From Oscillospiraceae bacterium (GTDB lineage Bacteria > Bacillota > Clostridia > Oscillospirales > CAG-382): 64,000 nt of DNA. The translations under genes and the position numbers were made by a program. The notes beneath the pieces are model-generated. The model was not told the DNA's origin. It saw nothing but the letters and a program-made list of their open reading frames with translations, and did not search any database. Of the stretch, positions 12,343 to 16,942 are shown piece after piece; positions within the stretch are counted from its first letter, which is position 1, and the number at the start of each line of letters is the position of its first letter. The stretch is taken from NCBI GenBank assembly GCA_015064625.1, contig SVRW01000004.1, positions 1 to 64,000 of the forward strand. The letters run 5' to 3'.

Positions 12343-13326
12343 ATGAAGATCAAAAAAAAGATTATATCCGTTTTGTTATTGCTGAGCGTTGCTTTTACCG
12401 CTTTCGTATTCGTGGGTAACGCTGAGGAAAAATCTGATTTTTCAGTTTCACTCTCTTTCCCTGAAATAGCCGAGCAGGGCGATAGAATTGACGTTACGGT
12501 CACTGTTACGGATATCACCTACGTTCCCTTTGAATACGGGCAAGGTATTCTCGGTGCTTCTGTATACCTTTACTATGATTGTGACGCACTGTCACCTGTT
12601 GATGAAAGCTTCTCCGCAGTTACACCTTCTGGATGGGATTCTTTTGAAGGTACGTCTCAAAGAGGTGTTTGGGCTTTGCACAGCGTTTTTGATGGAGTGC
12701 TTTCCAACGGAGCAGTTAATGATGGTGATTTGAGTTTTACAGTTTCATTTGACGTTGACAAAACGGCAACGCCTTCAGATGTTTATTTAACAGTTAACAA
12801 CTGTGAAGGAGCGGAATATAGCGAAAAATCTCTGGCTTACTTTCAATCCTTCAACGCAAGTGCATACTGCAAAGAAAAATTAACTATTATAGAACCACGC
12901 ATTCTTATTCCTAAAGATGAAAGTACCTTTGATATAGACAGAGAAAACTTTATTATATACTCTGAGCTTCCCTCTCTTGATTACGCCTCATTTTCAGAGC
13001 TTTTTTCCATAATCGGAGGAGATATGACTATCAAAGCCTTTGATTACGAGGTTACAGCCGAAAACGGAATGAATATTCCCAACGGAGCTGTTATTTCCGT
13101 TTATCATAAAAACACAGGCAGAACGTTTACATACACATATTATCTCCTTGGGGACTGCGACTGCAACGGTGACGTTAACGTCAGTGATCTTGTATCACTG
13201 AAATACACGATTGTTAAAAGAATCCCTGTTGAGGACCACGTTTTATTCTCAATGGATCTGGAAAAAGATGGAGCGGTCAGAATTGCTGATTATCTGAGGC
13301 TCAAAATGCGTATCGCATCCAAGTAA
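12343..13326 (+). CDS. Secreted protein with cohesin-like and dockerin domains
   Basis: This 327-residue protein has a signal peptide (residues 1-28, LLLLSVAFTAFVFVGNA). A beta-rich domain at about 30-185 looks like a cohesin or its CBM relatives (FSVSLSFPEIAEQGDRIDVT, GASVYLYYDCDAL, DGDLSFTVSFDV). A second stretch lies at 185-265. The C-terminal dockerin has two Ca-binding repeats: DCDCNGDVNVSDLVSLK near residue 275 and DLEKDGAVRIADYLRLK near 310. Dockerins bind cohesins in cellulosome-like assemblies. No glycosidase is fused or adjacent, so its role may be adaptor or surface protein. GAGG lies 9 nt before the ATG. Confidence 0.75.
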   Translation: MKIKKKIISVLLLLSVAFTAFVFVGNAEEKSDFSVSLSFPEIAEQGDRIDVTVTVTDITYVPFEYGQGILGASVYLYYDCDALSPVDESFSAVTPSGWDSFEGTSQRGVWALHSVFDGVLSNGAVNDGDLSFTVSFDVDKTATPSDVYLTVNNCEGAEYSEKSLAYFQSFNASAYCKEKLTIIEPRILIPKDESTFDIDRENFIIYSELPSLDYASFSELFSIIGGDMTIKAFDYEVTAENGMNIPNGAVISVYHKNTGRTFTYTYYLLGDCDCNGDVNVSDLVSLKYTIVKRIPVEDHVLFSMDLEKDGAVRIADYLRLKMRIASK

Positions 13327-15292: not shown

Positions 15293-15320
15293 TTGACAAA
15301 AACAAAAAAAAGTGTATACT
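15293..15320 (+). promoter_or_regulatory. SigA-type promoter of mgtE
   Basis: TTGACA (15293-15298), a 16-bp spacer and TATACT (15315-15320). Transcription would begin near 15327, giving mgtE a leader of about 250 nt. Confidence 0.75.
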
Positions 15321-15388
15321 TAACATTGTATATTTGCGAATTGTTTTATATATCAATCGCAAAATAAATTTCAAATTTTACAAAAAGG

Positions 15389-15472
15389 AGATGAGACGGA
15401 TGGATTCTGGCGGTAATAGCACGAATTCCGCAGGACGAAGTTGTAAAACAGAATATTTTATCCGTTGCATCT
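15389..15472 (+). promoter_or_regulatory. Structured leader hairpin upstream of mgtE
   Basis: The leader can fold into one long rod. AGATG (15389-15393) pairs with CATCT (15468-15472). ACGGAT (15396-15401) pairs with ATCCGT (15460-15465), leaving a 2x2 internal loop. ATTCTG (15404-15409) pairs with CAGAAT (15449-15454), and GCGG (15410-15413) pairs with CCGC (15428-15431). The outer stem covers part of the ribosome binding site and start codon of a small ORF. I do not see the conserved segments of the M-box magnesium riboswitch. Position before a magnesium transporter suggests regulation of mgtE, but the ligand or trigger is unknown. Confidence 0.6.
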
Positions 15473-15498
15473 GCTTCGAATATATAAATGTTTTATAG
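15400..15498 (+). CDS. Possible 32-residue leader peptide upstream of mgtE
   Basis: An ATG at 15400 lies 9 nt after AAAAAGGAG (15382-15390) and opens a 32-codon ORF ending in TAG at 15496. The predicted peptide begins MDSGGNSTNSAGRSCK and ends CFEYINVL, with no signal or membrane segment. An in-frame ATG at 15391 abuts the ribosome binding site and is less likely. The ORF overlaps the leader hairpin, so it may be a regulatory leader peptide analogous in position to mgtL upstream of mgtA. It could equally be chance inside an RNA element. There is no sequence similarity to known leader peptides that I can name. Confidence 0.4.
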   Translation: MDSGGNSTNSAGRSCKTEYFIRCICFEYINVL

Positions 15499-15577
15499 GC
15501 TTTGTAAGGCTTATTTGCTTTTTTCTGCGTTTTTGTTGTTTTACCCCTTTTTTATTCTATTTACAGGGAGGTAAACC

Positions 15578-16942
15578 ATGGAAGAAAAAAACATGCTTGA
15601 TTCAGCCTTGGAGCTGTTTCAAGCAAAACAGTATGCAAAGCTGAAAGAGCTTTTCTCATCGTCTGAACCTGCAGACGTTGCTGAAGTTCTTTCCGAACTT
15701 GAACGGGGACAGTACGTTAAATTATACAGACTGCTTCCTAAAAGCATTGCCGCAGACGTTTTCGTTGAAATGGATGCGGATGCTCAAAAAAACCTTATTG
15801 ATTCCTTCAGCGATGCTGAAATAACAGAAATACTTGAAGAGCTGTTCTACGACGACACAGTGGATATTATTGAAGAAATGCCCGCAAACGTAGTAGACAG
15901 AATTTTCAAAAATGCGCTCCCCGAAACGAGAAAAACGTTAAACGACCTTATGAGGTATCCCGAATCGAGCGCAGGCTCTATAATGACAACGGAATACGTT
16001 TATCTTAAACGCACTATGACCGTTGGAGAAGCCCTTAACCGCATAAGAAAGGTTGCCATTGAGAAAGAAACTATATATACGTGCTACGTTACTGAAAACC
16101 GATTTCTCGTTGGTATAATCACCGCTAAAGATCTTCTTATTTCTCCGCTTGAACGGAAAATTGAAGACATTATGGAAACAAACGTTGTTTCCGTAAAAAC
16201 GGAAGATGACAAAGAAGAAGCAGCGGCAATGTTTCTGAAATACGATCTTCTTGCACTTCCCGTCGTTGACAAAGAAAACAGATTGGTTGGTATAATCACA
16301 GTTGACGACGCTATGGACGTTCAAAATGAAGAAGCGGAAGAAGACTTCGCAAAAATGGGTGCTATCACACCAGGTGACAAGCCATATCTAAAGACGGGAG
16401 TTTTCGAAATATGGAGAAAACGTATCCCTTGGCTCTTGCTTCTTACACTTTCTGCCACATTTACGGGAATGATAATTTCTTCGTTTGAAAATGCATTGGC
16501 GGCACAAATCGCTCTTACTGCATTTATTCCCATGCTTATGGGAACAGGCGGTAATTCGGGAAGTCAATCTTCAGTTACTGTCATAAGAGGATTATCACTT
16601 GGAGAAATAGAATTTTCAGACGTTTTGAAGATTCTCTGGAAGGAGTTTCGTGTTTCTATTCTCTGCGGAGCCGTTTTATCGGTAGTTACCTACGTAAAAA
16701 TTCTTTTGATAGATAATCTGATTCTTGGAAGCGGAATAGACACGTTAACAGCCCTTACCGTCTGTATAACTCTATTTTTGACGGTAGTTGCAGCTAAAAT
16801 ATTGGGATGCACACTCCCTATTTTTGCTAAAAAGCTTGGGGCTGACCCTGCCGTTATGGCAAGTCCGCTTATTACAACCTTGGTTGATGCAGGTTCTCTT
16901 GTGATATATTTTGCAATAGCTGGACTTCTGTTAGGTATATAA
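15578..16942 (+). CDS. mgtE: Magnesium transporter MgtE
   Basis: This 454-residue Mg2+ channel has the full family layout. The N-terminal helical superfamily domain (about 1-130) ends in RYPESSAGSIMTTEYV. Two CBS domains lie at about 140-260 and five membrane helices at about 285-454. The pore-region sequence PMLMGTGGNSGSQSSVTVIR is intact. Cytosolic Mg2+ bound between the N and CBS domains closes the channel. GGGAGG lies 6 nt before the ATG. The long leader with a hairpin and a possible small ORF suggests control at the RNA level. Two small genes follow closely. Confidence 0.96.
   Translation: MEEKNMLDSALELFQAKQYAKLKELFSSSEPADVAEVLSELERGQYVKLYRLLPKSIAADVFVEMDADAQKNLIDSFSDAEITEILEELFYDDTVDIIEEMPANVVDRIFKNALPETRKTLNDLMRYPESSAGSIMTTEYVYLKRTMTVGEALNRIRKVAIEKETIYTCYVTENRFLVGIITAKDLLISPLERKIEDIMETNVVSVKTEDDKEEAAAMFLKYDLLALPVVDKENRLVGIITVDDAMDVQNEEAEEDFAKMGAITPGDKPYLKTGVFEIWRKRIPWLLLLTLSATFTGMIISSFENALAAQIALTAFIPMLMGTGGNSGSQSSVTVIRGLSLGEIEFSDVLKILWKEFRVSILCGAVLSVVTYVKILLIDNLILGSGIDTLTALTVCITLFLTVVAAKILGCTLPIFAKKLGADPAVMASPLITTLVDAGSLVIYFAIAGLLLGI

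Follow-up and report, generated by a model that had tools for sequence, protein, structure and literature searches.

The DNA upstream of mgtE in the window, by which is meant the whole 64,000-nucleotide stretch analyzed here, is best read as a translation attenuator of Mg2+ import that operates through three RNA pairings (1:2b, 2:3, and 3:4) and for which magnesium is the probable signal. The probability of this reading is put at roughly three in four. Comparison with related leaders points to an undescribed RNA switch in which translation of a tiny peptide would control Mg2+ uptake. Sequence comparison shows the leader and its hairpins to be conserved before the Mg2+ transporter genes of many Bacillota, gut-type Clostridia among them. 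A search of the open-access literature turned up no account of such a leader.

The RNA devices known to control Mg2+ uptake are largely the M-box riboswitch and enterobacterial leader peptides. To these, the leader would add a further solution, independent and widespread in Clostridia and other Bacillota, that serves two unrelated kinds of Mg2+ transporter, and it offers a way for mgtE to be controlled in a family without a detectable M-box. In addition, its fixed AGU and CGA codons pose a testable question, namely whether codon-specific decoding serves as a Mg2+ sensor.

The mgtE Leader in the Window

A sequence-only reading of the window had proposed that a strong promoter gives mgtE a leader of ~250 nt, within which a ribosome binding site (RBS) and an ATG open a 32-codon open reading frame (ORF). 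All of these features are present at the positions proposed, and the ORF and its RBS can be read from the sequence (Table 1). Transcription would be expected to start near 15327, and the mgtE start codon is immediately preceded by the RBS GGGAGG. A pattern scan found no terminator-like site on the plus strand of the leader. Directly past the expected transcription start, an inverted repeat (TTTGCGAATTG / CAATCGCAAA) occupies positions 15334–15361 and could be a 5′ stabilizing hairpin or an operator. Elsewhere in the window (12343–13326) is the gene for a predicted secreted protein, whose C-terminus, GDCDCNGDVNVSDLVSLK, is dockerin-like by eye only.

Table 1. Features of the mgtE leader region, with positions in the window.
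Feature	Position	Strand	Basis
Sigma-70-type promoter, TTGACA-16-TATACT	15293–15320	+	Pattern scan; 11/12 matches, near-consensus
Shine-Dalgarno (SD) region of leader ORF, RBS AAAAAGGAG	15382–15390	+	Read directly
Segment 1: leader-ORF SD and start codon, 5′ arm of stem 1:2b	15385–15404	+	Listed pairs; permutation z −18.7, 88 leaders
Leader ORF, 32 codons, MDSGGNSTNSAGRSCKTEYFIRCICFEYINVL	15400–15498	+	ATG 15400, TAG 15496–15498
Segment 2: ORF 5′ half, pairs with segment 3	15409–15450	+	Permutation, 83 leaders; window pairs
Segment 2b: ORF 3′ half, 3′ arm of stem 1:2b	15457–15476	+	Pairs; confirmed in 24 blind-found leaders
Segment 3: spacer strand, pairs with segment 2 or 4	15489–15547	+	Permutations; window pairs
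Segment 4: mgtE SD region to start codon, pairs with segment 3	15565–15578	+	Permutation z −8.4, 79 leaders
mgtE, Mg2+ transporter/channel, 454 aa	15578–16942	+	ATG 15578; TIGR00400 E 3e-143; PF03448, PF00571, PF01769

Conservation of the Leader ORF

Relatives of mgtE were gathered from the family, from GTDB species genomes, and from the order, and they yielded a comparative set of 126 related leaders, 88 of which are non-redundant. A DNA similarity search with the leader in the family returned just short AT-rich matches, so its conservation becomes visible only once leaders are anchored on mgtE. Most mgtE relatives with a close protein then show, 90–320 nt 5′ of the gene, a short ORF that begins alike. 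The shared start comprises a GAGGTG-like SD, ATGGAY, and codons for x-G-x-[S/N], giving the consensus M-[D/E]-x-G-x-[S/N] across the 88 non-redundant leaders. Residue 2 is acidic in 83/88 (D 77, E 6, S 4, A 1), an acidity kept through GAT, GAC, and GAA codons, and residue 4 is G in 65/88. Median ORF length is 29 codons (range 20–57); length and the C-terminal half of the peptide are variable, while the conserved part is hydrophilic and short.

Codon usage within the ORF is also constrained. For codons 3–16 of the 88 non-redundant leaders, counts by frame are 137:1:6 for AGT and 91:14:17 for CGA, as compared to 9:5:7 and 16:16:11 after codon 17. Among Ser codons, AGT accounts for 63% within codons 3–16, 9% after codon 17, and 8% in mgtE genes; the corresponding shares of CGA among Arg codons are 66%, 14%, and 5%. 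These counts and shares indicate that the reading frame is kept, and that specific codons or nucleotides in the 5′ half of the ORF are kept as well. Conservation of the ORF in related leaders had been set beforehand as a test that could refute the sequence-only reading, and both the consensus and the synonymous bias bear the ORF out. Sequence comparison thus shows the ORF to be maintained across leaders, and it is probably translated. As is typical of leader-peptide (uORF) attenuators, a conserved, translated-looking ORF with an SD precedes the main gene.

Two ideas about the conserved codons, a loop-E (AGUA/GAA) motif and a CCC-CGA frameshift, were set aside, as neither fits all leaders. In a distant mgtE relative (L281, about position 1518), a leader-like start, MDSDGSKGNN, runs on into mgtE without a change of frame, as though leader and transporter had been joined in one gene or this start served to extend the N-terminus.

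Conserved and Competing RNA Pairings

Stem 1:2b of the window consists of 18 pairs (15385–15404 with 15457–15476) that cover the entire SD and AUG at −22.4 kcal/mol. The start-hiding hairpin claimed from sequence alone is therefore present, but it is larger than the 11 bp ascribed to it. Its stability was equalled by 2/5000 shuffles of the 3′ region, and whole-leader folding energy is unexceptional (z −1.47); taken by itself, the window offers suggestive evidence of the stem and fold. Stronger evidence comes from cross-pairing permutations, in which the arms of one leader are paired with those of other leaders as the null. Across 88 leaders, stem 1:2b averages −17.15 kcal/mol versus −12.3 for swapped arms (sd 0.26, z −18.7), a difference reached by 0/20,000 permutations, counts that are not exact probabilities since the leaders are interrelated. 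Because the same arms pair in 88 leaders beyond the permutations, stem 1:2b is more than chance. Its conservation, like that of the ORF, was a test fixed in advance, and the stem beat all 20,000 permutations. Every variable position of the stem between SD and AUG shows 4–6 pair types. Within a single close clade, where pair counting is weak since the sequences are too alike, just 3 pairs change on both sides, as many as 52/500 shuffles reach, and the covariation score is reached by 1/500 shuffles.

Two further pairings exceed their permutations. One joins the 5′ half of the ORF to the spacer (2:3; −34.6 vs. −27.4, sd 0.45, z about −16, 83 leaders), and the other joins the mgtE SD to the spacer as well (3:4; z −8.4, 79 leaders; −11.3 kcal/mol in the window). 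By comparison, control pairings gave z values of +2.4 (leader SD with spacer), +1.4 (leader SD with ORF 5′ half), and −0.7 (mgtE SD with ORF 3′ half). Weaker above-chance pairings were seen between the ORF 3′ half and the spacer (z −5.2) and between the two ORF halves (z −3.7). Across the leaders compared, conservation of 1:2b, 2:3, and 3:4 is shown at the sequence level.

The anti-RBS strand of the spacer (15538–15547) can pair with 15409–15420 inside the ORF or with the mgtE RBS at 15567–15577. These two partners, GGCGGTAATAGC and GGGAGGTAAAC, respectively, resemble each other, which indicates that a mimic of the mgtE RBS lies within the ORF. Because of this mimic, pairings 2:3 and 3:4 compete for one spacer strand, such that the pairings are mutually exclusive and include the RBS of the main gene, as in uORF attenuators. 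Neither the pairing between the spacer and the 5′ half of the ORF nor the sequestration of the mgtE RBS by the same strand was noticed in the sequence-only reading, and it is this shared strand that would give the leader a route to mgtE.

Range and Target Genes

A 48-nt profile, extending from the SD to codon 10, was run on whole genomes without any mgtE information. Its strongest matches in the family genomes are mgtE leaders, and in the window this unbiased scan matched 15382–15422, which covers the leader-ORF SD. In 196 genomes of the class, 16/19 matches besides that of the window lie just 5′ of mgtE, including the leader of a distant mgtE paralog (26% identity, L270). Among 11 newly fetched loci from 299 genomes of the phylum, five precede mgtE, three precede mgtA, and three are unrelated. 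The mgtA-type product is a MgtA-type Mg2+ P-type ATPase, with NF011702 and TIGR01524 as its best families when partial proteins were scored. In the order of genome G580, 10/11 matches are located 330–390 nt 5′ of mgtA, and the leaders possess stems such as GTGAGAAGAATGGA/TCCATTCTTCTCAC.

Stem 1:2b recurs in 24 leaders found without mgtE information (−17.3 vs. −13.45, sd 0.51, 0/20,000 permutations), a set that includes three mgtA leaders (L287–L289) and one locus (L291) without an identified Mg2+ transporter downstream. Since mgtE and mgtA are unrelated Mg2+ transporters and both are preceded by this leader type, sequence comparison shows an association of the leader with two Mg2+ transporter families. 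The peptide leader is common, not universal, since a large number of further mgtE relatives lack both it and an M-box. Family matches L254, L255, and L259–L262 lie in or beside other genes with no complete leader and were judged to be chance, as were L274, L278, L280, and L290–L292. In mgtA leaders L287 and L288, segment 2b overlaps or lies within a further hairpin that is followed by U residues; in front of mgtA, the leader may regulate transcription termination as well.

Proposed Mechanism

The best-supported scheme would be an attenuator of the ermC/mgtQ kind, with 1:2b plus 3:4 as the off state and 2:3 as the on state. With 1:2b and 3:4 formed, both RBSs would be hidden and mgtE would be off. 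A ribosome that sits on the start codon, or that has reached roughly codons 18–24 near the end of the ORF, would break 1:2b and leave segment 2 free; 2:3 could then form, and mgtE would be opened. In contrast, a ribosome on codons 7–15, where the rare AGU and CGA codons are located, would block 2:3 and keep mgtE closed. The signal, to judge from the target genes mgtE and mgtA, is probably Mg2+, which would be read as altered ribosome start, slowing, or drop-off on the leader. By analogy with mgtL and mgtQ, fewer ribosomes passing over segment 2 at low Mg2+ would mean more mgtE. A narrower version, in which slow decoding of AGU and CGA over the internal RBS mimic is the sensor and Mg2+ is read through ribosome speed with no aptamer, is conceivable, if doubtful; it would represent a new class of switch for Mg2+ homeostasis in Bacillota.

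Regulation of mgtE by leader translation is predicted from footprint folding of 78 leaders, in which a 31-nt ribosome footprint is blocked and folds are pseudoknot-free. The mean cost of opening the mgtE RBS is 8.06 kcal/mol with no ribosome, and it changes by −0.63, +2.30, and −0.91 kcal/mol with a ribosome at codons 1, 11, and 21, respectively. At codons 11–13, opening becomes 2.3–2.4 kcal/mol harder in native leaders as compared to 0.15–0.42 in spacer-swapped chimeras, and the codon-1 effect turns to about +0.45 in the chimeras. Closing by a ribosome on codons 7–15 thus depends on the native ORF-spacer pair, as does the slight opening when a ribosome initiates. The codon-21 opening is about as large in chimeras (about −0.9 to −1.1) as in native leaders, so on average the late-ribosome step is independent of the native pair and gives no sign of selection across the leader set. 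The average effects are small, with SD accessibility shifting by only about 0.05, and the sign of control suggested here derives from this pseudoknot-free folding.

For the window, the modeled probability of 2:3 is 0.07 when no ribosome is bound, drops to 0 with one at codons 1–13, and reaches 0.73–0.92 with one at codons 18–22. The leader is accordingly modeled as off without a ribosome, off at codons 1–13, on at codons 18–22, and off again at the stop codon; in contrast to the average leader, this one keeps mgtE shut when a ribosome is at codon 1.

Known RNA Families and Alternative Explanations

Rfam searches gave no match at gathering scores in the window, and even a cutoff of E ≤ 10 brought up no credible family in the leader, where matches such as TeloSII_ncR49, Teg49, MIR161, and others fell far below gathering scores. 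Nor did any Rfam family reach its gathering score in the related peptide leaders. A covariance search for the M-box (RF00380), which detected the positive controls of B. subtilis and L. lactis, found none in the window, its whole genome, or 63 family genomes; the claim that M-box features are lacking, open to refutation by just such a search, was thereby upheld.

A ligand-binding riboswitch, sensing Mg2+ or something else, is an unlikely explanation. Its aptamer would be built from AGU...CGA and the 1:2b and 2:3 arms, perhaps as a pseudoknot, which these crossing pairings could form, and the ORF would be a by-product. Retention of AGU over AGC or UCN is conservation at the nucleotide level, and in L056, L059, L066, and L187 an M-box is found at this position. 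Against this, indels keep the frame, as the in-frame AGT and CGA counts of codons 3–16 show, with none of this after codon 17; residue 2 stays acidic through three different codons; the SD and start codon are conserved; and no compact conserved junction was seen in the leaders. Transcription attenuation, in which 1:2b or a nested hairpin would terminate transcription, intrinsically or through Rho, and read-through would depend on translation of the leader, is quite improbable. U-tracts do follow segment 2b in some leaders (e.g., L018 and L164), as U residues follow a hairpin in the mgtA leader L287, but at least four U residues occur there in only 15% of leaders, a count that speaks against a general terminator role for 1:2b, which was rejected on this ground. 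The plus strand of the window leader is also devoid of terminator-like sites, and selection on the mgtE RBS hairpin fits translational control.

The conserved N-terminal half could suggest that the peptide acts in trans, e.g., on MgtE, with RNA structure merely tuning expression. This is very improbable given the variable C-terminal half and length, the short and hydrophilic conserved part, the conservation of codon choice along with residues, and the occurrence of the same leader before two unrelated transporters. Finally, a chance hairpin beside a chance ORF, with no function, has next to no likelihood; the unremarkable whole-leader folding energy of the window would agree with it, but every comparative test (pairing permutations, in-frame codons, and blind-found leaders) contradicts it, and conservation already refutes it.

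Comparison with Known Systems

The translation attenuator proposed here is most likely analogous to mgtL, mgtQ, and ermC, and unrelated to them in sequence. Attenuators of the ermC type use a leader ORF and three competing stems to mask or free the main gene's RBS; they differ from the present leader in their antibiotic-stalled ribosome and unrelated target gene. In the mgtL leader of mgtA (Escherichia coli and Salmonella), translation of the entire leader is repressive, and repression is relieved when ribosomes drop off at low Mg2+ (PMC11282234). Shared features are a short ORF before a Mg2+ transporter, an acidic residue 2, and competing RNA structures; no sequence relation between the two was seen. 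Whereas mgtL works by Rho-dependent transcription termination and an EPDP motif, the leader described here pairs the mgtE RBS and lacks the EPDP/proline-rich destabilizing N-terminus of the mgtL family, since its consensus is MDxGxS/N, with mostly one early acidic residue per leader and repeated acidic residues rare. The original likening to mgtL before mgtA in position, with a different design, fits, and the leader even precedes mgtA in other Bacillota.

Another such leader is mgtQ, which precedes mgtB in Salmonella and shares translational control, stems 1:2, 2:3, and 3:4, and a hidden transporter RBS (PMC8092293). Asp2 and Glu5 of mgtQ lower leader translation and raise mgtB, and Asp2 has been shown to matter (PMC8092293); residue 2 of the present leader is mostly D. 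In contrast to the 8-codon mgtQ ORF, which lies inside an enterobacterial operon, the ORF here has 20–57 codons and occurs in Clostridia, its own SD and AUG form the first segment, and the ORF body bears the RBS mimic.

The mgtE motif SRC-65-1 is likewise a candidate cis-regulatory RNA before mgtE with an SD and AUG in a stem. It differs, going by its published description, in being a four-stem riboswitch candidate confined to Thioalkalivibrio that involves the mgtE start codon itself and has no leader ORF (PMC11109978). The Mycobacterium tuberculosis M-box leader also has a conserved uORF in a Mg2+-related leader and an SD-like strand competing for an anti-SD (the aaSD idea), but there an M-box aptamer is present and the peptide is specific to mycobacteria (PMC12810186). 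The M-box itself (ykoK leader) shares the position before mgtE and mgtA-type genes, and the present leader has no M-box homology. In L056, L059, L066, and L187, which are more distant mgtE relatives, an M-box precedes mgtE where others have the peptide leader, i.e., the two control devices are swapped in position.
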